From NCBI GenBank assembly GCA_031283085.1, contig JAITCM010000144.1, positions 1 through 64,000 on the forward strand: a DNA stretch of 64,000 bases. Direction: 5' to 3'. Every line of letters begins with the position of its first letter. Position 1 is the first letter of the stretch. Shown here one piece after another: positions 1 through 14,521 of this stretch. Source of the stretch: Chitinispirillales bacterium (GTDB lineage Bacteria > Fibrobacterota > Chitinivibrionia > Chitinivibrionales > Chitinispirillaceae). Below the pieces are notes generated by a model. That model was not told where the DNA came from, searched no databases, and saw nothing but the letters and a program-made list of their open reading frames with translations. Both the position numbers and the translations under genes were made by a program.

Positions 1-66
1 CAAGTTGCTTCGGCGCTTCGCGCCTCGCAATGACTGTCATTGCGAGCGTAGCGAAGCAATCCAGAA
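1..66. repeat. Palindromic dispersed repeat, copy A
   Basis: The arms TTGCTTCGGCGC...CTCGCAATGAC and GTCATTGCGAGCG...GCGAAGCAA form an imperfect inverted repeat centred near position 34. The core CGTCATTGCGAG / GCGAAGCAATCC is of the REP/MITE-like kind found scattered in many bacterial genomes. Degenerate copies occur at 7653-7760 and 11734-11787. This copy lies downstream of the GH8 gene stop, so in minus-strand RNA it would form a 3' hairpin. No transposase is visible nearby; mobility would need enzymes acting in trans. Confidence 0.8.
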
Positions 67-127
67 AGCCACAACTCTTAAAAAAGAATATTTACACAAA
101 ATTTGAAACTGTCTCCAAAATCCGTCA

Positions 128-2686
128 TTATTTCACCTTCAAAACCTTGACTTTCAGGTTCTGTCCGCGCCCTTTAATGTCCACAAAATACACTCCCTTA
201 GCCACGCCTCCAAGCGGCACCGACAGGCGCCCGTCTTTTTGCACGTCCAACCGCATCGCCGTCCTGCCCCTGATGTCAATCAATGCCGCCGGCGCTCCGG
301 CCATGTCGGCTGGCAGCGTTATCGTTACGGAGTTCGCGCTCCTCTTTATCGTGTATTTGGGTCGCGTGGCGCTGCGGTACGCGACGCCGATGGAGGGGTC
401 AAGGGAGACTGTGGGCGGCAGCGGCACGTAGGCGGGCGGCGCGGGCGGGGGCGTGTAGAGCTTTGAGACGTTGCCTGCAAGGAGCATCCGCTCAAGCATG
501 AGCGCCCCGGTCGTGCCGTTCGCCTCCTGAACCTGGAAGCGTATGGATGTAAGCGTGCGTAACGTAGTCGCAAGCTCCTTGCCGCTTCCGTCCCTGCGTT
601 GCCTGAAGCTCTTCAGCGGCAAGACGAACTCCCTTGACACGGCGGAGAGGACTATCGAGTCGGAGAAATACTGGTACTCGTTTGGAAAATTGAAGTCGGA
701 GGAGACCAATTGCACGGAGACGCTTACCGTGCCGCCCGCCGTCTTTGCCTTGAATATCAGCGAATCGACGCCGGTGATGTCTATCCCGTTGCCGTCCGCC
801 GTTTTGCAACTCCAGTCCAAGCCGGCGTACGGGTCGAAACCGAGACCGCCGGCGTTCAAACTGTAGGCCCAGTTGAGCCACACGTCGCCGCTCTCTTTCT
901 TGAAACTGAATATCGCGGTGGACGCCCCGGGCTGATTGAAGTCGGAGTCGTAGAAGCTCGTCCACTCTCTCCCTATATAAGGGGTAAGGTTGCTGTCGGC
1001 GAAATCGTCCACGAGCAAACGGTTGCCGCTCATCAGGTTGACGCTTGAGAAAGGCCTGCCCAGCCACACTTTATTCGTATAGACCTCGTCGACACCCGCC
1101 CCGCTCACCGTCAGCGTGTATAGCCCCTGCGGCATATACGGGTTATTGCCTGTTTGGGAGAGGCCGTACCACACCGCGCTTACATCTTTTGAGTTGCCGC
1201 CAAACGACGCCGTCTGCCCCGACGTGTCGTGCCTGATAGTTACCGTCCAGCGGACGGAGCGGCTAAACGAGGCGGTCAAGCGCAACGGCTCAACGCTCGC
1301 GTCGATTACGCGCGCGGCGGGCGTTATGACTGGGCGGTTCTCCCACTCCGGCGGGCCTTGCGGTATGCCGTCTTTCAGGTCGTCCCACACGTTGGTAAAA
1401 ACGCCGCCGAGCACGGAGGCGCCGAACCACGCGAGGAACTGGTCGAAGTACATCTCGTTACGGAGGGTGTCTTCTGTGCCGCCGGCCGGGTCGACGGCGT
1501 AGCCCCAGTAGTCGGTTCCGGGTTTATAGAATTTGAGCAGTTCTTCGCTGTAGCTTTCCGCCAGTTCCGGCCCGCCGGAGGCCATCGCGGCGGCGGCCCA
1601 CATGCCGACGGTGAGGTGGCTGTGCTCGCGGCGGGTACGCGGAATATTGACTTTTACGCTATCTCCAAGCACTTCCATACCGTCGGCGGGGAGAAGATTG
1701 CCGTCCATATCAAAGAAGTTAGCCGCCGGCGCTCCGCCTTTACGACTAATAAAAGTCATGGCGCTATCAAGGAAAGTTTTAGCGCGCGGTTCCCGGTACC
1801 ACAAATAGTCTATGCCCAAACGCCAAAAAACGCGGATAGCGTCTCTATAGAGCGCGTCACCCTTGAAAAAGGCGTTGTAACCCGCACCGCCCGTGGAGCC
1901 CCCCTCAAAGTCGAACCAGTCCGGCACAAGGCCGCGGCTGTATCCGGGAGACTTGGCAATATGGTTATAACATCCATTGATAAGATTGTTCCAACTTGCC
2001 CTGTTTGTGGAATCAAACTCGGCGAAGACGCGGTAGAACGCGGGGGCGAAGTAACCGGGATTGATGATGCCGTTTTGCCCCCAATTACCGGGCAAAAGCG
2101 CCCCGTTGCTTGCGACCATAGTAGTTCGGATGGTATTTAACAGGTTGCGGGCGCGGGTTTCGTAATTTGCCCCCTTTTCGCTCGTGTAGGATTGCCAAAT
2201 TCCGTTCTTTACCAGCCTATCGGCAAAGATGAGCAAAAGCGCTATGTCCTGGTCGGCATCGGACGCGGGTCCGGTGCCGATCTTGCCACCGCTCTCGTTC
2301 ACGCGCCAGTCGTAGTAATTCCCCGAACTCCCCCACGAGCCGGTAGCGTTCCACATATACTTTTCGCCGGCGTTCCATATCTTGTTGAAATAATTCTGGT
2401 CGTTGCTGTACAGGGCGAGGAACATCCCATACGAGACGCCCTCGCTGACAGCGTCGCCCGGCATATTAGATTTGGGCCTGTGGACAAGCCCTGTGGTATA
2501 GGCGTCGACGTTTCGCCTCTTTATCCCCTGCCAGGTCTTGATGAGGACAGTGTCGTACGACACGTCGGACGCCGCGACCACGGGCATTGAGCCCGGATAG
2601 GGAAGAAGGGCGGCCCAAACCGACGCGGTAGCGGCTAACAGTACCGCCGCCGCGGACTTTACGGATATTAATCGAGTCAACGACAT
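128..2686 (-). CDS. Secreted GH8 glycanase with C-terminal binding and sorting-like domains
   Basis: Glycoside hydrolase family 8 (endoglucanase/xylanase type, inverting). The family signatures are visible: the general-acid region SEGVSYGMFLAL and the DADQDIALLLI segment with the conserved Asp. The chosen start is the second Met block (MSLTRLISVKSAAA), which gives a clean signal peptide and a GGGAG ribosome site; the longer start at 2725 lacks both. After the roughly 400-residue catalytic domain come a beta-rich linker, a segment beginning VDDFADSNLTPYIG that resembles CBM11/CIA30-like sugar-binding folds, and a final 80-residue beta domain ending KGRGQNLKVKVLKVK, reminiscent of type IX secretion sorting domains. 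Predicted extracellular or surface-bound. The exact substrate (cellulose, xylan or chitosan) cannot be told from the sequence. Confidence 0.88.
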   Translation of the reverse strand: MSLTRLISVKSAAAVLLAATASVWAALLPYPGSMPVVAASDVSYDTVLIKTWQGIKRRNVDAYTTGLVHRPKSNMPGDAVSEGVSYGMFLALYSNDQNYFNKIWNAGEKYMWNATGSWGSSGNYYDWRVNESGGKIGTGPASDADQDIALLLIFADRLVKNGIWQSYTSEKGANYETRARNLLNTIRTTMVASNGALLPGNWGQNGIINPGYFAPAFYRVFAEFDSTNRASWNNLINGCYNHIAKSPGYSRGLVPDWFDFEGGSTGGAGYNAFFKGDALYRDAIRVFWRLGIDYLWYREPRAKTFLDSAMTFISRKGGAPAANFFDMDGNLLPADGMEVLGDSVKVNIPRTRREHSHLTVGMWAAAAMASGGPELAESYSEELLKFYKPGTDYWGYAVDPAGGTEDTLRNEMYFDQFLAWFGASVLGGVFTNVWDDLKDGIPQGPPEWENRPVITPAARVIDASVEPLRLTASFSRSVRWTVTIRHDTSGQTASFGGNSKDVSAVWYGLSQTGNNPYMPQGLYTLTVSGAGVDEVYTNKVWLGRPFSSVNLMSGNRLLVDDFADSNLTPYIGREWTSFYDSDFNQPGASTAIFSFKKESGDVWLNWAYSLNAGGLGFDPYAGLDWSCKTADGNGIDITGVDSLIFKAKTAGGTVSVSVQLVSSDFNFPNEYQYFSDSIVLSAVSREFVLPLKSFRQRRDGSGKELATTLRTLTSIRFQVQEANGTTGALMLERMLLAGNVSKLYTPPPAPPAYVPLPPTVSLDPSIGVAYRSATRPKYTIKRSANSVTITLPADMAGAPAALIDIRGRTAMRLDVQKDGRLSVPLGGVAKGVYFVDIKGRGQNLKVKVLKVK

Positions 2687-2778
2687 ATATTTTCTGTCTC
2701 CCGGACAAATAAAACATCTCATCAATAGAAACGATTATTTTTCATACGACCGGGCGGACAGCCCACGCCCGCGCATAA

Positions 2779-3438
2779 TCACTTCTTCTTCTTAGCCGCC
2801 TCTTTCTCGGCCTCTTTCGCCGCCGTCTCCTCCTCCGCCGGCGCAAGCTGCGTATCCAAACACTCTATTATCCTCATTACGCGATATCCGGGTATCGCCA
2901 CCTTCGCGTCGGCTTTCCAACCGGCTTTGGTCTGGACATAGGCCTGCTCCAGCTCGTTCTCCTTTACCTCATCCTTTACGCAGGCCAACAGGTAGGCTTT
3001 CGCCTTCTTATCCTTTGACATGACGTACTTTTCCATACCGGCCGCGGCCTTGTCGTAGACCTGGTTCACCGCCGTCTTGGTCGCGACATCAAGCGACGGC
3101 ATGGTTGACGAACCGACCGCGTTTACCTGCGGATAGCTCTTGGGCCTGTTGGACTTGGGCGGCTGAGATTTCACAAAAGTATAGGTATAATCTGACCTGA
3201 GCCACAACACGTTGGTCTTGAGCGGGATGTAGACGTCGCCGTTATCGTCCGGGGCCAACGTAGCGTTCTTGTAGCTCCAAGAGCTGTCCGGATGAAGTAT
3301 CACCTCGCTGCCGTCCTCAAGAGCAATGGTCGTGACGGAACCCGGGGCGGCGAGGGACGGGACGGCGGCCGCCATGGTCAGCAGAGCCGCGACCGCCAAT
3401 ACTGTTCCGACGACAGTAATTTTTCTTTTTGATGCCAT
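2779..3438 (-). CDS. Secreted protein of unknown function
   Basis: A 219-residue protein with a clear signal peptide (residues 1-30, cut near SLAAPGS). A short motif, EDGSEVILHPDSSWSY, recalls small periplasmic proteins with a DG.-.-L..D.SW core, but I do not recognise the family firmly. The C-terminus is a charged Glu/Ala/Lys tail, probably helical. It lies 92 bases upstream of the GH8 start on the same strand and could be cotranscribed with it. The upstream AAGGAAAG is an acceptable ribosome site. Confidence 0.75.
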   Translation of the reverse strand: MASKRKITVVGTVLAVAALLTMAAAVPSLAAPGSVTTIALEDGSEVILHPDSSWSYKNATLAPDDNGDVYIPLKTNVLWLRSDYTYTFVKSQPPKSNRPKSYPQVNAVGSSTMPSLDVATKTAVNQVYDKAAAGMEKYVMSKDKKAKAYLLACVKDEVKENELEQAYVQTKAGWKADAKVAIPGYRVMRIIECLDTQLAPAEEETAAKEAEKEAAKKKK

Positions 3439-3488
3439 TTTTATTCTTTCCTTTTTGATAGATGAAAAACCGTCGTTTAACAGCGCCT

Positions 3489-4505
3489 CTATCTTCTATA
3501 CGGGTTGGACAAAATCATTACGCCCTTTTCCATTCCAAAGTACAGGTTTCCCGACAACTCGTCCCTGTACATCGCGTATACCTGCTCCGCCTGTACGCCG
3601 TGCATATTTTTATCCGAGACCCACTCTTCGCCGTTGAACCTCAGCAAACCCGATTCCGAACCGAACCAGGTGCGGCGGGTATCGTTCATTATGCTGGTTA
3701 TGCCCTCCTGTATCTCCACGTAACGCTTCCACTCCCTGCCGTTGAACGTGTTGAGGTTCTTTGGGCCGTCGGTCATCCATATAACATCGGAGTTGGGTTC
3801 TTTGGCGAGCACACTGACATTGTTCCACTCTAAACCGCTGTTGCCGGTGTTCTTGGCGTTGTAGTTTTGGAAACTCGACCCATTGTGAACGCTCAACCCC
3901 TTGTTGGTGCCAAGGTACATTTCGCCCCTTGAGTTGGCTATCAACGCCTGTACTCTATTCGACGCCAAACCGTCGCTCGTCGTATATTTTGTCCAAGAGC
4001 TGCCGTTGAAACGCGCCGCGCCGTTCTCGGTGCCTATCCAGACATCGCCGCCGCTTCCGGCCGCGACGGCGAGAACCTTACCTTCGGGAATACCGTCCGC
4101 CGACGTGTAGGAAGTGACGTTCTTGCCACGGGCGACGGCCACGCCCTCATCGCAGGCGAACCAAACGCTTCCGCCCCGTTCAATTGCCATGCTCGTCACG
4201 CCGGTAGACGCTATGTTACCCAACTTGGGGTATTGCTGCATGAGCGGCTTCCCTTTGACCGATGCCGTCGACTGCCAAATCACTATCTCATCGGTAGCGT
4301 ACCAAACGGCGTCGCTGAGCACCGCGAACGCCTTGACCGGCGATCGGGAGGCGATAATCTTATACTCGGTGGGCTTCTCGTGAATCACCTCGCGGGCCAT
4401 CTTGTCCTCCTCCGACTTCTCCGGCTTTTGGGCGAAAGCGGAAAGGGCCAAAGACAGCGTTAAAAGCACGGCCGATGCTACCGGTTTCGGTTTTAATCTC
4501 AACAT
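3489..4505 (-). CDS. Secreted beta-propeller (two-component regulator propeller repeat) protein
   Basis: A signal peptide (cut after LALSAFAQ) is followed by several repeats of the form VWIGTENGAARFNGSSWTKY / MYLGTNKGLSVHNG, the Reg_prop pattern used in the sensor domains of hybrid histidine kinases. No kinase, membrane or sorting domain follows, so this is a free periplasmic or exported propeller. The AAAGGAGGAG ribosome site 5 bases before ATG fixes the start. It is related in style to the larger protein at 23312-25525. The ligand is unknown. Confidence 0.85.
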   Translation of the reverse strand: MLRLKPKPVASAVLLTLSLALSAFAQKPEKSEEDKMAREVIHEKPTEYKIIASRSPVKAFAVLSDAVWYATDEIVIWQSTASVKGKPLMQQYPKLGNIASTGVTSMAIERGGSVWFACDEGVAVARGKNVTSYTSADGIPEGKVLAVAAGSGGDVWIGTENGAARFNGSSWTKYTTSDGLASNRVQALIANSRGEMYLGTNKGLSVHNGSSFQNYNAKNTGNSGLEWNNVSVLAKEPNSDVIWMTDGPKNLNTFNGREWKRYVEIQEGITSIMNDTRRTWFGSESGLLRFNGEEWVSDKNMHGVQAEQVYAMYRDELSGNLYFGMEKGVMILSNPYRR

Positions 4506-4525
4506 AAACTCCTCCTTTTGGATGA

Positions 4526-4554
4526 TTTTTAACGTTAAATAAAGTCAAAGTCAA
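4526..4554 (-). promoter_or_regulatory. Possible promoter of the propeller gene
   Basis: On the minus strand TTGACT (4549-4554) is followed after 17 bases by TAAAAA (4526-4531). The spacer between 4506 and 4606 is AT-rich. The -10 is a poor match, so the call is tentative. Confidence 0.3.
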
Positions 4555-4606
4555 TACCACATACAATACAATTAATATACTTACCCGCGAACTATAACGC
4601 AACATT

Positions 4607-6889
4607 TTACTTTTCATCAACTCCGTAGCCCCAGTAGCCCACCTCCGGCTTTGATTCTTCGTACTCGTATCCGGGCGTCTTGAACAGCGCCTGATATGTC
4701 CAGTAGTTGCCCATCACCTTCTTTACGTAACCGCGAGTCTCGAAGAAGCCTATGTCTTCCACGAACAGGTCGGGCTCCAGGTGTTTGTTCCTGTCGCGCC
4801 ACTTGATTGCGTTGTGGGCGCCGGCGTTGTAACTGCACAGCACCAGCACCTTGTCGCCGTCAAACTGAACCGAGCGCTTCCGCAGGTAGAAAGTACCGTA
4901 GCGGATGTTCGTCTCGTAATTGTAGAGTGACTCCTCCGCAAACGTCTCTTTCAACTCCCGCGCTATCCCCTCGCCCGTCGCCGGCATGACCTGCATCAAT
5001 CCGATGGCCCCCGCCGGGGAGACAATCCTGTCGTCGAAGATGCTCTCCTGCCGCATAACCGCGCTTACGAGCAACGGGTCAACGCCGAAACGGGCGGCGT
5101 ACTTCCCTATCTCCGCCGAATAAAACGGCGGGAAGAGTACCGACAGCACCTGAATCGGCCTGCCCTCCCTGCTCTCTAAGGGGATGCGCCACATAAGCCT
5201 GCGGGCGACGCGGAAAGAGAGCGCTTTGCTGCCGGCTATGGCGTAGCCGCACGCCAAATCATATTGAAGCTGCAGGTTCTCGGTATAGCCGCTCTCAAAC
5301 CTGTCCAAAAACATATCCGCCACCGCCGGACGCGCAACCGTGAGCAACGCTACGCCACGCGCAAAATCGACGCTGTCCCTGGCGGACAACTTTCTCTTAG
5401 ACCAGGGTGTCAGGGAGTCAAGCCAAGCCCGCGCCCACGCTTCGTCAACGCCGCGTATGGCCATCCGCCCCCCAAACAGCCATCCGCCCGCCGTACTGTC
5501 GGCGCCCGCGCCCGCAAGCTGCCGCGCCCGATGCGCGTAGTAGTCCGTCGGGTCAAGCCGCATTATCTCACCCCACACCTTACGCGCCTCGGCCGCACGC
5601 CCCTTGGCCGCGTGGCTCTTCCCCTGCCAAAACATCCCCGCCCACTGATAGTCCGACTGCGGGAACTTCCTCTTGAACGCCTCCAAATGGGCGACCGTGC
5701 TGTCATAAAGGCCCCGCCGGTAGTAACAAAGGGCATGGCGCAGATAGGCCTCCTCCGTCCGCTTGCCCCTGGTGCCGAAGACACGCCTGTAAGCAGCCGC
5801 GGCCGACTTGTAGTCACCCGCCTCCTCAAAATTCCAGGCGCGCAGCCACAGTATCTCCTGCGTCTTCTGGTGGTTGGGGAAGCGCTCCACGTGGCGGTCA
5901 TACCAAAGCTGCGCCTGACCGCCCAAATCGAGATTGCGGCAGGCGCGGGCAATGTTCATCAGCACATCCGACTCCGAACCGTAAGCGGCGTCGTACTTCT
6001 TATAGTAATCTATGGCCTTCTGCCACTGCTCACGCCCAAAGGCGACGTCCCCCAAGAGCCGCGCCGCTTCTTTGGCTGGCACAGCTAAGGAAAACTCGGC
6101 GCGCCGCTGCGCCTGCCGCAACATTTTATCGGCGGTGGCAAAATCGCGGCACTCGGCAGACTGCTTCGCTATTGAAAACAAAAATTTCGTCGTAACAAGC
6201 GTAGTGTCGGAAGCGCGTTTTTTGAACACGCGGTCTACGAAGCGGCAAACCGAACGCCTGTCGAGCTCCGGCATATACCTTTCAAGGATGGAATCGGCCT
6301 CGGCCACGCGGTCGTCGGCGACGAGCGAGTCGCAGACAGCCTCCAATCCGGCGGCGTCGAAGAGCCTCTGCGTACGCTCCCACCTCCGGTACTCGCCGAG
6401 CCAGGATGGCGCGGCGGGTATGGAGGCCCCCCTGTCGAGCTGCGGCTTTATCTTAGAGAACACATACTGGCGATACTTAACGGGAAGCCCGACGGTCTTG
6501 AGAGCCGAGGCGTAAGCCGCCACGGCGAGCGCCCCCTTACCCTCAACCGCGGCCAGGTCGCCTATCTGTTCCATTGCCAGCGGCGCCAGCACCGGGCCGG
6601 CCCGATTGACGGCGTTGAGCGCCGATATCGCCTCGGAAACATTGCCCAGCCGGGCGTTTATCACACCAATCTTGTACAACCGCAGAAGCGTGTCGGCCTT
6701 CTTGACGGCGGTATCCCTGTTGACGGCGGAAAGGGCGGCGTCATACGCGCCGACGGCCAATTCTCGCGCCCCGGACCAGCTGGCCGCGCCGGATAGACGC
6801 GGGGAGGGGGCGGCATGGGAACGGGTCAGACAAGGAAGTAAGACGGCGAACACCGCCGTTATCAACGTTAATTTCGGATAGTTGCGCAT
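4607..6889 (-). CDS. Slt70-like soluble lytic transglycosylase with TPR domain
   Basis: A periplasmic murein hydrolase that would cleave MurNAc-GlcNAc bonds. A signal peptide (residues 1-27) is followed by about 500 residues of TPR-like helical repeats and a C-terminal SLT domain. The catalytic Glu is in AVMRQESIF, followed by SPAGAIGLMQVMPATG and the CSYNAGAHNAIKW motif. The order (superhelix, then catalytic domain) is that of Slt70, with a slightly longer helical part. No Shine-Dalgarno sequence is evident. It neighbours other envelope genes but does not overlap them. Confidence 0.92.
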   Translation of the reverse strand: MRNYPKLTLITAVFAVLLPCLTRSHAAPSPRLSGAASWSGARELAVGAYDAALSAVNRDTAVKKADTLLRLYKIGVINARLGNVSEAISALNAVNRAGPVLAPLAMEQIGDLAAVEGKGALAVAAYASALKTVGLPVKYRQYVFSKIKPQLDRGASIPAAPSWLGEYRRWERTQRLFDAAGLEAVCDSLVADDRVAEADSILERYMPELDRRSVCRFVDRVFKKRASDTTLVTTKFLFSIAKQSAECRDFATADKMLRQAQRRAEFSLAVPAKEAARLLGDVAFGREQWQKAIDYYKKYDAAYGSESDVLMNIARACRNLDLGGQAQLWYDRHVERFPNHQKTQEILWLRAWNFEEAGDYKSAAAAYRRVFGTRGKRTEEAYLRHALCYYRRGLYDSTVAHLEAFKRKFPQSDYQWAGMFWQGKSHAAKGRAAEARKVWGEIMRLDPTDYYAHRARQLAGAGADSTAGGWLFGGRMAIRGVDEAWARAWLDSLTPWSKRKLSARDSVDFARGVALLTVARPAVADMFLDRFESGYTENLQLQYDLACGYAIAGSKALSFRVARRLMWRIPLESREGRPIQVLSVLFPPFYSAEIGKYAARFGVDPLLVSAVMRQESIFDDRIVSPAGAIGLMQVMPATGEGIARELKETFAEESLYNYETNIRYGTFYLRKRSVQFDGDKVLVLCSYNAGAHNAIKWRDRNKHLEPDLFVEDIGFFETRGYVKKVMGNYWTYQALFKTPGYEYEESKPEVGYWGYGVDEK

Positions 6890-6962
6890 ATCATAATAAT
6901 ATATATCATGGAACCGCCTCGCGAACGATTATACCGCCCGCAATTAATGCGGACGGAGCGCG

Positions 6963-8273
6963 TCACCTGGCGAATATCCCCGCAACCTCCGTATGATGCG
7001 TATTCGGGTACAGGTCGAACAGGGCGAGTTTCGTCAATTTGTACCCGCCGGCGAGCAGGGCGCCCGCGTCTCTCGCGAAGGTGGACGGATTGCAGGATAC
7101 GTACAGAACGCGGCTCGGCGCGGTGTCCGTCAGCCACTTGCGCACCGCTTTGACGAGACCCGGTCGCGGCGGGTCAACCACTACGCAGTCGGGGCGGCGG
7201 CCACCGGCTATCTTCCGTAAACCGCCGCCGCGCTCCACATCGGCCAATACCGCCGTCAACCCATTCTTTTTATTAACGGCGAAGTTCCGCTCCGCCGCGC
7301 GTATCTGCCCGGCGACGTTCTCAACTAAGATTATCTCCTCAAAATCATCCGCCAGCATAAGCGAAAAAAAACCTATCCCGCCGTATAAATCCAAACAAAA
7401 TCCGCCGCCCAAACACCCTTTGGCCCACCGGCCAAGTCTCTCCAATAAAAATCCGTTGGACTGAAAGAAGCTCCCGCCGTCGGCCAAAAATTTTATTCCC
7501 GACACGTTTATCTCGGTCGCGGCATCAGTCAATCCGTCAATAACGGGGTCGCTTGCCACGCTGTCGCCAACCAATACCTTTATGCTGCTTACAGCGTTTG
7601 TTTTGTCACAGCTATTGATATTGCTATCGCTGCCGATACTGTCAATTCTTCCGGATTGCTTCGTCGATTCGCTCATTTGGCTTACGCCGAGATAAACAAG
7701 TTCGGCAAGCTCAATGCATCGCCTCGCAATGACATCATTACGAGCGTGGCGCCGCAACCCGTTTATCTCACCGTTCAACCCCGCCAACACACCGTTGAGC
7801 CGCTCGTCCAAGAGCAGGCAACTGTCCACTCTCACCACGTCGTTGGTCTTCTTGCGGAAGAATCCGGCGCAACCGTTTTCATAATCAACTTTGATTTGCG
7901 CCCTTATCCTGTAACCGAATTCGTCAGCCGTGAATATCTCCACATCATGCGGATAATCAAACTTGCCGATACGTGTCAAGCACTCTATAAGAATATCCTT
8001 TTTGCACCTGACCTGTTCGTCGTAATAAAGATGAAGCCAGTCACATCCGCCGCACTCCCCGGCATAAGGGCAGGGCGGCTCGCGGCGATGGGGCGACGGG
8101 TCGACAATCTTCACAATCCGCCCGCTCCGCACCCCGCCCTTAGCCCCGTTCTCCTCAACCTCAACGACATCGCCGGCCGCCGCATCCGGTATCAACACCA
8201 CGCCTTTGCCGTCTTTAGCAAAACCGTGTCCGCCGAATACCAGCTTTTCTATCCTCAACGTGTCAACGGACAT
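6963..8273 (-). CDS. rlmD: 23S rRNA (uracil-C5)-methyltransferase, RlmD/TrmA family
   Basis: S-adenosylmethionine-dependent m5U methyltransferase of the RumA/TrmA family. It has an N-terminal TRAM OB-fold (residues 1-60), [4Fe-4S] cysteines in CPYAGECGGCDW plus a later Cys (VRCKK), a Rossmann methyltransferase core, the VVDPPRPGL motif, the catalytic Cys in YVSCNPST and the proton-acceptor Glu in HHTEVAGIF. The middle of the protein carries 36 residues encoded by a palindromic repeat (7653-7760) and then an Asn/Ser/Asp-rich stretch. All catalytic residues are present, so the enzyme is probably active. The precise U site (747 or 1939) is not resolved by sequence. Confidence 0.93.
   Translation of the reverse strand: MSVDTLRIEKLVFGGHGFAKDGKGVVLIPDAAAGDVVEVEENGAKGGVRSGRIVKIVDPSPHRREPPCPYAGECGGCDWLHLYYDEQVRCKKDILIECLTRIGKFDYPHDVEIFTADEFGYRIRAQIKVDYENGCAGFFRKKTNDVVRVDSCLLLDERLNGVLAGLNGEINGLRRHARNDVIARRCIELAELVYLGVSQMSESTKQSGRIDSIGSDSNINSCDKTNAVSSIKVLVGDSVASDPVIDGLTDAATEINVSGIKFLADGGSFFQSNGFLLERLGRWAKGCLGGGFCLDLYGGIGFFSLMLADDFEEIILVENVAGQIRAAERNFAVNKKNGLTAVLADVERGGGLRKIAGGRRPDCVVVDPPRPGLVKAVRKWLTDTAPSRVLYVSCNPSTFARDAGALLAGGYKLTKLALFDLYPNTHHTEVAGIFAR
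7572..7650 (-). repeat. Degenerate coding repeat in the rlmD-type gene
   Basis: The minus strand reads as loosely repeated ATT GAC AGT ATC GGC AGC GAT-type codons, giving the peptide DSIGSDSNINS. The same flavour of low-complexity, in-frame sequence occurs at 18434-18541, 20596-20650 and 22671-22740 in unrelated genes. It directly abuts the palindromic element at 7653-7760. Confidence 0.5.
7653..7760. repeat. Palindromic dispersed repeat, copy B, in frame inside rlmD
   Basis: The left arm GGATTGCTTCGTCGATTCGCTC is separated by about 48 bases from CTCGCAATGAC, then follows a degenerate right arm ATCATTACGAGCGTGGCGC...CAACCC. The 108 bases (36 codons) contain no stop in the host frame and encode part of the protein (from about LRRHARNDVIARR to STKQSG). 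This resembles the Rickettsia palindromic-element situation, in which a mobile palindrome is tolerated in a coding region. Confidence 0.75.
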
Positions 8274-8396
8274 CTTTTCTTCCCGTCATACGTACGCCTC
8301 AGACGCCGCTTTCGTGCCGCCGCAGATATCGACAGGCAGGTTTGCCGTTGATTCTTCCATCGTTTGCCGCATACGCCCCATAAAGAATCAACACCA

Positions 8397-9689
8397 TTAA
8401 TCACCGGACAATTTGACATTCGGCAAACCCTTCCTGTCGCCAATGACCGCGCCCATCGGGCGCCACCTTGCCTTTGCCCTTTCACGCGCGCCGTGAATCC
8501 TCGCCGCCATTTCGCCTATACCGGCGCTCCGCCGCTTTCCCATTGCGTCAACAACGCCGCCGTCCTCGCCGACATCGTCCCCGTCGTCCTCCGTAAGCGA
8601 AAACTCGGGTTGCAGCATTTTCAGCGCGTAGTACATCTCCCTTAACTCCCTTATCAGCTGTTGCCGGATGTATGAGGCCGGGATATTCGGGTATTCGGCC
8701 TGTATCTCCTCGACTTCCGCTTGGATTATCCCGCGCTGACGCGCGTTCGGAATACGCGCGTCCACATAGCTTTCAATATCCGCCGGTACCTGATCCGGTT
8801 CTATTCCAACCCTGTGGTACTGCCCCGTTCTCTCCGAAATCCCGCTTATCTCAAGGAAAGTGACGCTAAGTTTCCTGATTCTTTCTCTCGTTTCAATCGG
8901 GATAAGCAGCTGCCCGATGCCCTTGCCGTAGCTATTGCTACCTACCAAATACGCGCCCGCGCCGTCCTTCAGGCCGGCGGCCAATATCTCGGAGGCGCTG
9001 GCGCTGTAGCCGTTTATCAATACCGCGACCTTCTTGTTTAGCAACGCGGGGCTCGGCGTCTCCGTGCTGAACACGTCCTCAAATGTCTCGCCCGCGTTAT
9101 AGCGGCTGTTGTAATCCCTGTAGCGGACATTGAGGTACGGGGTGCCGTAAGGCAGCAACTCGCCCAATATCGCGTCGGTCACACCAATGTACCCGCCGCC
9201 GTTGTTGCGCACGTCTATGATGATGTTCGGGTACTCCGACAATCTCGGCAGAACTTCGTTAAAAAATACGAGCGCCGTATCCGAGAATTCCGGTAGATAA
9301 AAGTACACGGTGGAGGGTGTGAACTCCATCGGCTCGTAAAACTCAGTATTCGGATCAAACAATTCCTCGCTGCCGCCCAAGTGATCGCTCAGGTATTCGG
9401 TGTAGCGCACGCCGTGCAGGGTGTCGTGTATGCTATCGAACATATCATTGGGTGTCATTGACCCGATGTAATCGGGAAGGCGGTCATGGTAGATACTGTA
9501 TATCTTGAGGCTCTGCCACACGCTATACCGCTCGCCATTGTCAACCCCGCCGTTGTCCGCCGGAATCAAAAAATCATCGGAGTCCCGGTGGACGCAACCG
9601 CCGGTAAGCGCGAACACGGCGATAACCGCGAACATCAGGAGTTTGCGTTGACACCGCCTTTTCTTTTTTTCTTTTCCTATGTCTGACAT
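8397..9689 (-). CDS. S41-family C-terminal-processing-like protease, lipoprotein
   Basis: A lipobox (FALTGGC) after a charged N-terminus predicts a lipoprotein. The peptidase_S41 core is clear: IIIDVRNNGGGYIG, the nucleophile region GYSASASEILAAGLKDG and the general-base Lys in SNSYGKGIGQ. No PDZ domain is seen, unlike classical CtpA/Prc. The C-terminal 130 residues are helical and charged. It is 62 bases downstream of a paralogue (9752-10891) with which it shares most motifs, so the pair arose by tandem duplication. The AAGGAG ribosome site lies 12 bases before ATG. Substrate unknown. Confidence 0.88.
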   Translation of the reverse strand: MSDIGKEKKKRRCQRKLLMFAVIAVFALTGGCVHRDSDDFLIPADNGGVDNGERYSVWQSLKIYSIYHDRLPDYIGSMTPNDMFDSIHDTLHGVRYTEYLSDHLGGSEELFDPNTEFYEPMEFTPSTVYFYLPEFSDTALVFFNEVLPRLSEYPNIIIDVRNNGGGYIGVTDAILGELLPYGTPYLNVRYRDYNSRYNAGETFEDVFSTETPSPALLNKKVAVLINGYSASASEILAAGLKDGAGAYLVGSNSYGKGIGQLLIPIETRERIRKLSVTFLEISGISERTGQYHRVGIEPDQVPADIESYVDARIPNARQRGIIQAEVEEIQAEYPNIPASYIRQQLIRELREMYYALKMLQPEFSLTEDDGDDVGEDGGVVDAMGKRRSAGIGEMAARIHGARERAKARWRPMGAVIGDRKGLPNVKLSGD

Positions 9690-9751
9690 TTGTACTTGTT
9701 CTCCTTATGGCATATTTAGAGTTAAAGTAAAAATCACCGTTGATAACTTCG

Positions 9752-10891
9752 TCACTCGCCGGATAATCGCATCCCCGGCAAATCCTTTTCGTCGATAATG
9801 ACCGCGCACATGGGGCGCCACGTCGCGTTTGCCGTCGCTCCGGCGCCGTACACCGTATTCGTAACGGCGCGCAGTTTCGCCGCCAGCGTATCCCCGCCGT
9901 CGTCGGGATTAAGCGTAACCCCCGGTTCCAACATCTTTAGCGCGCAGTACAATTCCCTGACATACCGCGAACCCGCGTCCGGCCATCGCGCTGCGGCTTC
10001 GTCCATTATCTCTTGCGGCACGGGGTCGGGATTGATACCGACATTGTGGTACAGCCCCGTCCTGTCTGTGAGTCCCCAAATCTCCATGAATGTTATACTG
10101 AGCCGCTTACGCTTGCGCTCCGGCTCGTCTCTCTTAATGATGACCTGGCCTATGCCCTTACCGTAGCTTGTGCCGCCGATTAAGTACGCGCCCGCGGCGT
10201 CCTTGAGGCCGGCGGCTAATATTTCGGAGGCGCTGGCGCTTTCGCTGTCCATCAGCACCGCGAGCCTCTTGGGACGGCCATCCGGATTGAGCAGGTGGGG
10301 ATTCCGCGTAGTCGTGCGGCTCGTCTCCTCCACCGTTTCACCCGCGTACTCGCGGTTGTTGTACCGTCTATAGCGATTATTGATGTACGGGGTATCGTAG
10401 GGCAAAAGCTCGCCCAAAATAGAGTCGGTCACACTCAAATACCCGCCGCCGTTTTTGCGGACATCAATGATGAGGTTCGGATGGCGCGACAGTTCCCGCA
10501 TACTTATATTGAAATATTCAAGCGCCGTATCCGAGAACTCCGGCAGGCGGAAGTACATAGTGGATGAGTCGGCGGTGAGCGGCTGCGGATGATGGAACTT
10601 CGTATTCGGGTTAAATATGGCCCCGCCGCCGGGACGGTCGTCAACGTACTCGGTGTAACGCCCGCCGCGCAGCGAGTCGTTTATGACGCGGAACATATCG
10701 TACGGATCCATTGAGCCGGGGGTCTTGGGGAGACGCTCCCGGTAAATGCTGTAGACCTTGAGATACTGCCACACGCTCTGCTGCTCCTCAAGGCCGGCCT
10801 CATCGCCGTCGTAAGAGGGATATACGCAACCGCAAATAAGCGCAAGCGCGGCAATAACAATGAGCGTCGGCAATCGGCGTTGATATCGCAT
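9752..10891 (-). CDS. S41-family protease lipoprotein, paralogue of the next gene
   Basis: The lipobox ALICGC gives a lipoprotein. The S41 signatures are LIIDVRKNGGGYLS, the Ser in DSESASASEILAAGLKD and the Lys in GTSYGKGIGQ, so the Ser/Lys catalytic pair is intact. The N-terminal VWQYLKVYSIYRERLP and the C-terminal TWRPMCAVI segments are also shared with the 8397-9689 protein. No PDZ domain is visible. The start has only a weak AAGAAG ribosome site. It lies 33 bases downstream of rpe on the same strand. Confidence 0.88.
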   Translation of the reverse strand: MRYQRRLPTLIVIAALALICGCVYPSYDGDEAGLEEQQSVWQYLKVYSIYRERLPKTPGSMDPYDMFRVINDSLRGGRYTEYVDDRPGGGAIFNPNTKFHHPQPLTADSSTMYFRLPEFSDTALEYFNISMRELSRHPNLIIDVRKNGGGYLSVTDSILGELLPYDTPYINNRYRRYNNREYAGETVEETSRTTTRNPHLLNPDGRPKRLAVLMDSESASASEILAAGLKDAAGAYLIGGTSYGKGIGQVIIKRDEPERKRKRLSITFMEIWGLTDRTGLYHNVGINPDPVPQEIMDEAAARWPDAGSRYVRELYCALKMLEPGVTLNPDDGGDTLAAKLRAVTNTVYGAGATANATWRPMCAVIIDEKDLPGMRLSGE

Positions 10892-10924
10892 CTTCTTTTT
10901 TTCTTTGTTAAAGTGTTTTATACG

Positions 10925-11593
10925 TCAACCTCTAACTTTTTGTATCCTGTCCCTGTAATCCGAATTGCCGAAGACGTAGCTCCCCGCCACCAAAACATTC
11001 GCCCCGGCTTCAATACAGGCTTTGGCCGTCTCCTCATTGACGCCACCGTCCACCTCTATGTCAATATCCATACCTTTCTCTATCGACATTTGTCTCAACG
11101 CGCGAACTTTCTCCAATACGTCGGGGATGAACTTCTGGCCGCCGAAACCGGCGTAGACCGACATCACCACCGCCATGTCTATCTCCGGCAACGCTTCCGT
11201 AAACAGGCTTATCGGTTTGTCGGGATTGACCGCTACCCCCGCCCGTACGCCGCGCGCCCTTATCCTCGCCGCAACCGCCCTGACGCCGTCCAACCCGCCC
11301 ACCGCCTCGGCGTGGAAGGACAGTATGTCGGCGCCGGCGTCGCAAAAGGCGTCCACGTATCCGGCCGGGTCGACGACCATCAGGTGCACGTCAAGCGGCA
11401 CGGCGACGCACCTCTTCACCGCGGCCACCGCCATCGGCCCAAAGGAGATATTGGGCACAAAGCACCCGTCCATGACGTCGCAGTGGATAAGGTCGGCCCC
11501 GGCGTCCTGGGCGGCCTTGACCTCCCGCTCCAAGTAACGGAAGTCGGCAGAGAGTATGGAGGGGGCGACCCTGACTTCGGTTCCAGTCTTCAT
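10925..11593 (-). CDS. rpe: Ribulose-phosphate 3-epimerase
   Basis: Interconverts ribulose-5-phosphate and xylulose-5-phosphate in the pentose phosphate pathway. The TIM-barrel metal-site motifs are present: APSILSADF, IHCDVMDG, VHLMV, VYAGFGGQKF and DGGVN. I chose the internal Met (MKTGTEVRV), which gives the usual length of about 222 residues; the extra 38 upstream codons have no homologous look. No strong ribosome site is seen. It is divergent from the GH3 gene across a 213-base spacer. Confidence 0.95.
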   Translation of the reverse strand: MKTGTEVRVAPSILSADFRYLEREVKAAQDAGADLIHCDVMDGCFVPNISFGPMAVAAVKRCVAVPLDVHLMVVDPAGYVDAFCDAGADILSFHAEAVGGLDGVRAVAARIRARGVRAGVAVNPDKPISLFTEALPEIDMAVVMSVYAGFGGQKFIPDVLEKVRALRQMSIEKGMDIDIEVDGGVNEETAKACIEAGANVLVAGSYVFGNSDYRDRIQKVRG

Positions 11594-11733
11594 AACGATA
11601 GACAAAAATAATATGGGGCCGCGGGCAAAATCAAATTCAAACGCTTTTGATTTTAAAGAATCCGATTTGGTTTTTTGGGCATCGGCTATTATATTATAAG
11701 TATGCAAACCGATAAGGTTCGGGTATTGTTATA

Positions 11734-11787
11734 GATTGCTTCGCTCGCAATGACGTCACTGCGAGGAGCAAGCGACGAAATAATTCC
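11734..11787. repeat. Palindromic dispersed repeat, copy C, in the GH3 leader
   Basis: GATTGCTTCGCTCGCAATGACGTCA followed by CTGCGAGGAGCAAGCGACGAA is an imperfect inverted repeat of the same family as 1-66. It ends about 20 bases before the GH3 start codon, just upstream of its AAGGGAGG ribosome site, so its hairpin would sit in the mRNA leader or overlap the promoter of either divergent gene. Confidence 0.75.
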
Positions 11788-11806
11788 AATATTAAGGGAG
11801 GTTAGT

Positions 11807-14521
11807 ATGATATTCTTAAAGACACCCATCGCGCTTGCGCTTTTCTGTCTATTGCCGGTCGCCGTCGCGACGCATACGTCGGGAGCGGTCACGTTGACGG
11901 GGAAAGTTACCGACAGTCTAGGAAACGCTCTGCAAAACGCCGTTGTACAGATTAAGTCAGGCGGCAGCCTGCTCGCGTCCGCCCGCGCGCTTACCGACGC
12001 GCAGGGGAATTTCGGGCAGTTCAAATCCTCTGCCATAGAAGTTGCCGGCGCCGGGGAAACATTGCTGGTCGTTAAGAAAACCGGGTATTTGCCGAAAACC
12101 GTCGATTACGGCAGCCTGTCGGGAGACGCCGTAACCGTCGTTCTCGAAAGCGACCCGCTGGAGAGGCGCATCGACAGCGTTATGGCAATGATGAACCTCG
12201 CGGAGAAGCTCGCCCAAATGACCCAGGCGGAGCAGGGTTCCGGCGGCATTTACAGCCCCAACACCGTTAACAAACCGAACAACGGAAACGACTATCTTTA
12301 CGGCAGCGTTTTGAACGGCGGAAGCGGTTATTCGTCAACATTCCTTAGTACGGTAACAACTACCCTGAACAGCTGGCCGGCCGGCCGGGCTAAAATCCCT
12401 ACTTCATACGGCAAAGACGCCGTACATGGCAACGCGGGAGTGTCCGGCTATACCGTGTTCCCACACAATATAGGCCTCGGCGCCACCCGCGACTCCGCCC
12501 TGGTGAGGCGCATAGGCGAGGCGACCGCCAAAGAACTCTGGGCGGCCGGCATAGACCTCAACTTCTCGCCGGCCGTATCCGTAGTCCGCAACTTGCGTTG
12601 GGGCCGCTCCTACGAAAGTTACGGAGAAACCGCCGAATTATCGGTACAAATGGGCGCGGCGATGGTACGCGGTTTGCAGGGGGAGCGCTACAACGCCCCG
12701 TGGCGCGTAACAGCGACCGCCAAACACTTTTTGGGCGACGGCGGCACGACGGACGGCAAAGACCGCGGAAACACCGCCGCCACGGACAGCGTGTTACGCG
12801 CCGTCCACCTGCCCGGCTACGAGGCGGCGGTGGAACAGGGCGTCCTGAGCGTCATGGCAAGTTTCAATCAGATAAACGGAACGCATCAACACATCGACTC
12901 CGTCCGCCTTACCGGATGGCTCAAGACGGAACTGGGCTTCGACGGCTATGTCATAAGCGACTGGCAGGGCATAGCCAACTCAAATCAGCCGGGATTTACC
13001 TCGCCGGACGGCTACGGCCCCGGCGCCAATACCGGGCCTGCGCTGACCCAGGAGGCGGTGCGCAAGGCAATCAACTCGGGCATCGACCTCGCTATGGAAC
13101 CCGGCACCCATACAAATTTCATGACGTACCTGACTGCGCTGGTGAACAACGGTTCCGTCTCCCAAGCCCGTATTGACGACGCGGTGCGCCGCATCCTCCG
13201 CGCCAAGTTCCGCGCCGGCCGCATGGACAACTTTGCCGGCCCGTCAGGTTACGTCGGCAACACAGCCAACAAAAATCCAGCCGCTCACCGCGAAATCGCC
13301 CGCGAAGCCGTGCGCAAAAGCCAGGTGCTGCTCAAAAACGACAACTCCGCCCTACCGCTCTCAAAGAGCGCAAAAATTCACGTGTTCGGCAGTCATCGCG
13401 ACAATATCGGCTTGCAATGCGGCGGCTGGACTATCAACTGGCAGGGTGATACCACAAACACCGCCTTCTCCGGCGTCGGCACCTCCATATATAAAGGTAT
13501 GCAGGAAGTACCCGGAGCGAATGTGTCGGCGTCCGCCGCGGAGGCGGACGTAATCGTCTACGTTACCGGCGAACGCCCCTACGCCGAGTGGGAAGGCGAC
13601 CTTGCCTCCCTTGAATTCAACCCCCCCGCGGCGGATATGACCGCTCTTACCGATTACCGCGGACAGGGGAAAAAAATCGTAACGGTATTCGTCGCCGGCC
13701 GCCCGCGCTCGGCGCAGCAGCTTTTGCAGGCAAGCGACGCTTTCTTAGCCGCCTGGCTGCCCGGCACGGAGGGCGGCGGGGTGGCGGACATCCTCTTCGG
13801 CGGCGCCATAACCGGTACGTTGCCCGTCACTTGGCCCGGCGCTAACGGTACGCAATTCCAATATGGATTCGGGTTGAACTATTTAAAAACCCCGGCCGCC
13901 CCGAACGCGCCGACGCTGGCCACAAAATCGCACAACAGCGTAACGCTCACGCCAAACGCCGCGTATGAGTTTTCTATGGACGGAACCGCATGGCTGAGAA
14001 ACAACGAGTTTATCGGTTTGGAAGAAGAAACGGAGTACACGTTTTATCAAAGGGCGGCCGCTACGGACACTTCAAACGCTTCCGCGCCGAGCCCCGGACT
14101 TAACGTGACGACAGACAGGGAGACAATCTCCATAGCACGCGGCGCCCGGGAAATTCCGTCCGCCAAGACCGGCGGCGTAAGCGTACTGCGGCCATTATCC
14201 GCGGTGGTAATAAATAATTTCACCGCCGGACCGAATCCGGCCGCGTCGCGCTCCGGCAGCGTGAATTTCTTTTGGCGGGGCGGCGGGTTCAAGAGCGGCA
14301 CGCTTAACATCTATGACGCGTTCGGAAATTTTGTCAAGAAAATCAACATCGGCGACGGCGACAGGCCGACAGAAGAATTCGGACGGCGCTACGTCGGCAA
14401 GTGGGACTTTACCGACAGAAAAGGACGGCCGGTTTCGGAGGGGAGCTACGTCGTTAGGGGAACGGTCACGGGGCGGGATGGGAAGAGTACGAAAATTTCT
14501 TTTGTTTTGGGGATGAGGTAG
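11807..14521 (+). CDS. Secreted GH3 beta-glucosidase / glucan exo-hydrolase
   Basis: A retaining glycosidase that would release glucose from cello-oligosaccharides. A signal peptide (1-28) is followed by a carboxypeptidase-regulatory-like beta domain (VTLTGKVTDSLGNAL), the GH3 barrel starting at MNLAEKLAQMTQAE with the nucleophile Asp in GYVISDWQGI, the GH3 C-terminal domain with GNVGLQ-like features, an fn3-like segment (near EETEYTFYQRA) and a FlgD-like C-terminal domain (LNIYDAFGNFVKKI, SYVVRGTV). The Met at 11807 is preferred because AAGGGAGG lies 6 bases upstream. It is probably cotranscribed with the HD gene 19 bases downstream. It would act after GH8 or GH1 in glucan use. Confidence 0.92.
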   Translation: MIFLKTPIALALFCLLPVAVATHTSGAVTLTGKVTDSLGNALQNAVVQIKSGGSLLASARALTDAQGNFGQFKSSAIEVAGAGETLLVVKKTGYLPKTVDYGSLSGDAVTVVLESDPLERRIDSVMAMMNLAEKLAQMTQAEQGSGGIYSPNTVNKPNNGNDYLYGSVLNGGSGYSSTFLSTVTTTLNSWPAGRAKIPTSYGKDAVHGNAGVSGYTVFPHNIGLGATRDSALVRRIGEATAKELWAAGIDLNFSPAVSVVRNLRWGRSYESYGETAELSVQMGAAMVRGLQGERYNAPWRVTATAKHFLGDGGTTDGKDRGNTAATDSVLRAVHLPGYEAAVEQGVLSVMASFNQINGTHQHIDSVRLTGWLKTELGFDGYVISDWQGIANSNQPGFTSPDGYGPGANTGPALTQEAVRKAINSGIDLAMEPGTHTNFMTYLTALVNNGSVSQARIDDAVRRILRAKFRAGRMDNFAGPSGYVGNTANKNPAAHREIAREAVRKSQVLLKNDNSALPLSKSAKIHVFGSHRDNIGLQCGGWTINWQGDTTNTAFSGVGTSIYKGMQEVPGANVSASAAEADVIVYVTGERPYAEWEGDLASLEFNPPAADMTALTDYRGQGKKIVTVFVAGRPRSAQQLLQASDAFLAAWLPGTEGGGVADILFGGAITGTLPVTWPGANGTQFQYGFGLNYLKTPAAPNAPTLATKSHNSVTLTPNAAYEFSMDGTAWLRNNEFIGLEEETEYTFYQRAAATDTSNASAPSPGLNVTTDRETISIARGAREIPSAKTGGVSVLRPLSAVVINNFTAGPNPAASRSGSVNFFWRGGGFKSGTLNIYDAFGNFVKKINIGDGDRPTEEFGRRYVGKWDFTDRKGRPVSEGSYVVRGTVTGRDGKSTKISFVLGMR

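Follow-up and report, generated by a model that had tools for sequence, protein, structure and literature searches.

A mosaic palindromic repeat lies in frame in a predicted rlmD gene of a Chitinispirillales bacterium and recurs in other protein genes

The closest described systems are the CGTC-tagged REP super-family (Di Nocera et al. 2013, PMC3733652) and the Rickettsia palindromic elements (RPEs), and the two overlap, since the former paper counts RPE-6 and RPE-4 as CGTC-1 and CGTC-4 repeats. As described there, CGTC repeats have a stem of 8–9 bp and a loop of 4–5 bases, form mostly head-to-head dimers (tail-to-tail ones are rare) and come without a linked or dedicated transposase. Bradyrhizobium is among the genera it names as carriers, and the five phyla it lists do not include Fibrobacterota. 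RPEs are palindromes of ~100–150 bp, known as in-frame inserts of housekeeping genes that are unrelated to one another (Ogata et al. 2000, 2002, as relayed in PMC10969869 and PMC3733652).

We analysed a 64,000-nt stretch of DNA from a Chitinispirillales bacterium (“the window”: positions 1 to 64,000 of contig JAITCM010000144.1, assembly GCA_031283085.1), in which a first-pass annotation had placed a palindromic repeat in frame within an rRNA methyltransferase gene. This claim stands, with corrections: the host is a 436-codon open frame with a match to the RlmD profile, and copies of the repeat occur at many places in the genome. The segment is an insertion, it is made of repeat DNA, and the repeat turns up again in further genes of this genome as well as in sister species. 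We are highly confident in the fuller reading that a dispersed, non-coding mosaic of the CGTC-REP/RPE type was inserted into the variable linker of RlmD and is translated as ~36–41 extra residues. A literature search on the letters CATTGCGAG returned unrelated papers only.

The rlmD gene and its insert

The host frame matches the TIGR00479/RlmD profile with 224.8 bits (cut-off 183.55) and also matches PF05958, and the best solved relative of its product is E. coli RumA (RlmD, PDB 1uwv); by these matches it is predicted to encode an RlmD-type 23S rRNA uracil methyltransferase. No stop or frameshift interrupts the gene. The CPYAGECGGC cysteines and the SCNP motif, which we take to be the iron-sulfur cluster residues and the catalytic motif of RlmD, align with those of E. 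coli RumA, in line with the first-pass remark that the active site is untouched. The insert starts ~17 residues after the VDSC cysteine (residue 152), ahead of the methyltransferase domain, and occupies about residues 169–209, in a linker that is variable across all relatives. Its predicted peptide (e.g., CIELAELVYLGVSQMSESTK) has many basic residues.

Aligning RlmD homologues for a gap at this place had been set beforehand as a check. Among 60 relatives, 56 gave matches; the best 29 were inspected, 27 of them cover the insert site, and all 27 (six from the same genus) lack the segment. The insert site lies outside the range of two partial homologues (L010 from G006, L021 from G026), and a longer, distant RlmD form (L028 from G041) has unrelated sequence there. 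The nearest relative, G007, has an RlmD with 79% identity over 404 aligned codons and 36 fewer residues (108 nt) between LNG and VSS, with the frame kept. The proposed gain of about 36 residues, a multiple of three without a stop, is borne out. The segment given for it, 108 bases at 7653–7760, has exactly the right net length; the repeat-derived part is longer and overruns it on both sides (Table 1). Compared with other species of the genus, G007 itself has a long linker, and the loop had already grown in the ancestor that it shares with the species studied here. No other copy in the assembly is identical to the one in RlmD, which sits within a 104-kb contig; both points speak against an assembly error. 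Beside the palindrome, at residues ~210–230, RlmD is also lengthened by an N/D/S/T/G-rich stretch encoded by GATACCGGTATTGATACC-like DNA.

Three kinds of unit make up the insert: an inverted CGTCATTGCGAG pair, a 23-base GAGATAAACAAGTTG module that is present twice in inverted orientation, and a GAGCTTGCCGAA-type / GCATTGAGCTTGCCGA module. Its beginning on the coding strand, GAGATAAAC, pairs with an internal GTTTATCTC, and most of it is predicted to form a single hairpin (−45 kcal/mol, z −2.8). The palindrome core has the same centre as window positions 24–46 and 11744–11765. The earlier equation of the segment with the element at 1–66 and 11734–11787 is correct for the core; the remainder consists of 23-base and GAGCTTGCCGAA-type modules. 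All intact copies of the element carry GTCATTGCGAG units, i.e., a CGTC (or TGTC) tag followed by a stem starting with AT, and end in GCAATCCA(GA) with a short unpaired CCA tail. The stem, ATTGC/GCAAT as read off the sequence, has 5 paired bp, with mismatches further in. On each strand of the consensus palindrome, two of the three frames are stop-free and the third reads CAA TGA.

Table 1. Positions in the window of the host gene, the parts of its insert and two further copies of the palindrome; a dot marks a feature without assigned strand
Feature	Positions	Strand	Basis or remarks
rlmD host gene	6963..8273	-	436 codons; TIGR00479, PF05958, PDB 1uwv, open frame
Whole repeat-derived insert, mosaic palindrome	7648..7769 (approx.)	-	122 nt; repeat matches, absence from homologues, fold
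Distal end GACGAAGCAATCC	7653..7665	-	Usual end of the element; recurs in other copies
23-base module CCGAACTTGTTTATCTCGGCGTAAGCC (also GAGATAAACAAGTTG module)	7676..7702	-	Separate high-copy repeat, sometimes tandem
Palindrome core, tail-to-tail pair of CGTCATTGCGAG-type units	7723..7744	.	Coding strand CTCGTAATGA TGTCATTGCGAG
Inverted partner of 23-base module, GAGATAAACGGGTTGC	7754..7769	-	Outer hairpin arm; sequence and fold
Tail-to-tail palindrome copy	1..66	+	Contig end, within a larger IS- or MITE-like repeat
Degenerate intergenic copy	11734..11787	.	Between ORFs 10925-11707(-) and 11750-14521(+)

Copies in the genome, in other genes and in relatives

After clustering of the matches listed, ~72 places in the genome under study (G000) carry some module and ~56 carry the palindrome core. 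A second near-complete copy of the segment lies on G000:C3 (83% identity, BLAST E 4.6e-28), alongside dozens of partial ones. The 23-base module has dozens of exact or near-exact matches and forms a tandem array with period 23 at G000:C44, and the copy at the window's start is one of four identical full-length copies, again with dozens of partial ones. The bare 12-mer, allowing two mismatches, occurs 8 times in the window (7.1 expected), i.e., at chance level, so the case for a repeat relies on the longer copies. The pattern TGCGAGNNNNNGNGAAGCAATC, whose spacing is unlike that of the element, had no match; repeats like GGTATTGATACC occur twice in the window, without a clear excess, and Rfam returned no family within window positions 1–14000. 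The degenerate copy overlaps the annotated N-terminus of the ORF at 11750-14521(+), whose true start is probably a downstream ATG.

About 14 of the ~56 copies are no more than 200 bases from the start of a contig, which indicates that the assembly breaks at palindrome repeats. Window positions 1–118 resemble the terminal part of an IS- or MITE-like repeat (closing with GAAACTGTCTC) with the palindrome copy inside, and at L068, L069, L070, L072, L111 and L117 palindromes likewise sit within a larger repeat, which is bounded by GGGAACCTCTAAAAA ... TTTTTTAGAGATGCCC. Elsewhere in the window, the neighbouring ORFs at 8397-9689 and 9752-10891 (-) form a tandem duplication (71–81% DNA identity over parts) and look, by eye, like S41-type peptidases.

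The genome search for the element in other coding regions, a second check named in advance, was positive: among the copies in this genome that were read together with their flanks, several lie within long frames. Besides RlmD, the counted hosts in this genome are PyrD (dihydroorotate dehydrogenase; PF01180, NF005574), a family-2 glycosyltransferase (GT2), a MurU-like nucleotidyltransferase, a polyferredoxin and two proteins without assigned family, L104 and L120. Three candidates were left out of the count: an LptE-like protein and L123, where the copy is near an N-terminus of uncertain start, and a weak DsbD-like case. At each of the counted sites besides RlmD, the sister-species proteins are without the insert; the host loops are variable, and short in relatives where this species has repeat DNA. 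In PyrD, for example, the insert falls at a point where only ~seven residues separate the aligned blocks in the solved enzyme 5ue9. Not every copy is complete: those in GT2, L120 and the DsbD-like gene have modules only, without the palindrome core, and that in L104 has one unit and a module. The core-bearing in-gene copies use both open frames of the palindrome, reading HCERSEAI in PyrD, the nucleotidyltransferase, MetH and NifV, and VIA..KQS or similar in RlmD and the polyferredoxin; because the frame differs among host genes, there is no conserved peptide.

MetH and NifV are hosts in sister species. The MetH copy lies in an 873-aa frame of G007 (TIGR02082), and the NifV copy in G006 has a counterpart at the same place in G007, not in G000. 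The arms of the two NifV palindromes differ and the linker around them has diverged between the two species; they may represent one old insertion or two. The NifV-like homocitrate synthase is a fused frame of 630–666 aa in four species of the genus (L347 = G006:C66:912-2909, L381, L382 and L383), in which the order of the two halves has apparently been exchanged. We considered whether the palindrome had made this fusion in G006 (666 aa) and rejected the idea, since G000, G003 and G007 have the fused gene too and G000 has no palindrome there.

Other sequences also lengthen such loops. The G007 homologues of the nucleotidyltransferase and L104 (L271 and L333) carry another palindrome in these loops, GTAGGGGCGAATTGTGTTCGCCC or a degenerate form of it, which is GTAG-type and in frame as VGANCVRPSV or similar. 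At L073, L101, L104, L259 and L260, from several species of the genus, palindrome-adjacent loops are extended by N/D/S/T/G-rich residues encoded by DNA like that beside the RlmD palindrome.

The full 66-base tail-to-tail dimer is present in G000, G006 and G007 and had no match in G001, G003, G004 or G005. In G002, and in other families within the order and phylum, the matches are shorter, and G030, from the same order, has pairs in head-to-head order. For the exact 26-base unit, the matches listed include Bradyrhizobium, where it is common, numerous further Alphaproteobacteria, and records labelled Bacteroidales, Chloroflexi/Anaerolineae, Spirochaetaceae, Phycisphaerae, Clostridia, Rickettsiales and Legionellales. 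One match, a Fibrobacter succinogenes contig (L209), agrees at 92% with G051, of genus g24 in family f8; as this genus is in the same phylum as the window, the genome studied here falls in Fibrobacterota. The CGTC-type unit is a widely scattered repeat type.

Origin and spread of the insert

The simplest alternative, ordinary linker growth in this lineage with a chance likeness to repeats, suits a linker that varies throughout the genus and had already lengthened in the ancestor shared with G007. We give it virtually no credence, however, because it is refuted by nucleotide matches reaching E 4.6e-28 and by tens of copies of each module. Decay of rlmD, with its open frame a recent accident, is highly improbable: in the laboratory, cells can often do without RlmD, but the 436 codons are uninterrupted, the catalytic and cluster motifs are kept, and the other host genes are likewise intact. 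Between this genome and G007, dN/dS is 0.10–0.20 for RlmD (~0.15), PyrD, the nucleotidyltransferase and GT2, a measure that spans the whole branch and not only the time since insertion. Purifying selection acts on the host genes compared. The inserted peptide might instead have been put to use, e.g., in RNA binding through its abundant basic residues, and be kept by selection, and the NifV palindromes, which share a site in G006 and G007 despite the diverged linker, would fit such a role. The host proteins are unrelated, however, the reading frame varies from gene to gene and the insert is absent from sister species, so we think this very unlikely.

How the repeat moves is a further question, and for this we looked for Y1 transposases. 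In a REPIN/RAYT-type system, a Y1 (HUH) transposase would move the palindrome in trans as single-stranded DNA. The small inverted palindrome pairs are in keeping with this, as are the one Y1 gene found in the genome, which is RAYT-like (PF01797; L129 = G000:C86:2900-3244), and fragments of the palindrome that lie ~0.2–0.9 kb from the Y1 gene of G002. The Y1 gene of the genome under study, however, is bracketed by different palindromes (GCACCCC.TAGGGGTGC-type) unrelated to the CGTC repeat, of which no copy was seen in the 3.3 kb read around it. Similarly, the Y1 gene of G002 (L126) is bracketed by unrelated GCACCCCGGATNGGGGTGC-type palindromes, the CGTC-type fragments not directly flanking it, and no Y1 gene was found in G006 or G007, which have many copies in assemblies only 68% complete. 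We consider a RAYT carrier improbable and, as a candidate for the present repeat, unsupported; the lack of a linked RAYT agrees with the lack of a dedicated transposase in the published account of CGTC repeats (PMC3733652). None of the 11 complete copies with both ends preserved (several of which share one larger repeat) has a target-site duplication of at least 4 bases, and no parent transposon of the palindrome repeat was identified.

We therefore favour the insertion of non-coding repeat DNA, for which we propose the following course. A mosaic palindromic repeat entered an already variable RlmD linker, which joins the iron-sulfur part to the methyltransferase domain. Two open frames per strand would let some insertions leave the host gene open, selection would remove the others, and in-frame copies in tolerant loops would remain. 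The peptide is presumably translated and roughly neutral, and the element may spread as non-autonomous DNA, either by some enzyme or by replication errors at hairpins. Most likely the repeat is selfish or neutral DNA, with selection as the filter that retains copies in frame and in tolerant loops. We saw no gene broken by the palindrome, and since in-gene copies were found via open frames, this tests the frame-breaking share only in part. Three candidate gene-splitting copies between same-strand ORFs were rejected, as their flanks are separate complete genes and not the halves of one.

A broader possibility, which we regard as doubtful, is that certain housekeeping loops of the genus are repeated landing sites, where unrelated palindromes (CGTC-type mosaic and GTAG-type) and N/D/S/G-rich DNA are added in frame. 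If true, these loops would reflect a continuing loop-building process, not isolated accidents.

Comparison with known repeat families

In-frame palindromes are best known from Rickettsia; here at least seven genes of a single genome from a distant phylum have them, as do other sites in sister species, and the case shows how repeat DNA can become protein. The old question of whether such inserts are merely tolerated or help to shape proteins is now open to comparison, as some species of the genus have the element and others lack it, allowing insertion age, frame bias and loop tolerance to be measured within it. Annotators should expect peptide signatures like HCERSEAI and VIASxAKQS within real proteins.

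Like MITEs, the repeat is small and non-coding with inverted ends (TCTGGATTG...CAATCCAGA), but it differs from them in the target-site and parent-transposon results above. It resembles GTAG REPs/REPINs in being a non-autonomous, short interspersed pair of inverted palindromes, but it has no GTAG tag, and the RAYT gene is bracketed by another palindrome. With CGTC REPs, as described in that paper, it shares the CGTC/TGTC tag followed by AT, the GCAAT-CCA end, inverted dimers, both genic and intergenic positions and, as far as Y1 transposases are concerned, the absence of a linked transposase. In contrast to that description, 36 of 36 dimer records (a figure in which some loci count twice) show tail-to-tail pairing, so that the tags face inward, extra modules are nested in it or attached, and its host phylum is Fibrobacterota. 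Its stem, read off the sequence as 5 perfect pairs plus inner mismatches, may also differ from the described 8–9 bp.

The likeness to RPEs drawn by the first-pass annotation holds in that the repeat lies in frame in several unrelated protein genes, a likeness of behaviour, on which we assign it to no Rickettsia RPE family. It does not hold for structure, as the insert is not a single element but joins at least three modules in a mosaic, and the phylum is distant. On its letters, the element is best placed with the CGTC REPs by tag and tail, and it is RPE-like by behaviour. What is new is the exclusive tail-to-tail pairing, the attached modules and the Fibrobacterota host; in-frame palindromes themselves have already been described in Rickettsia and some other bacteria.
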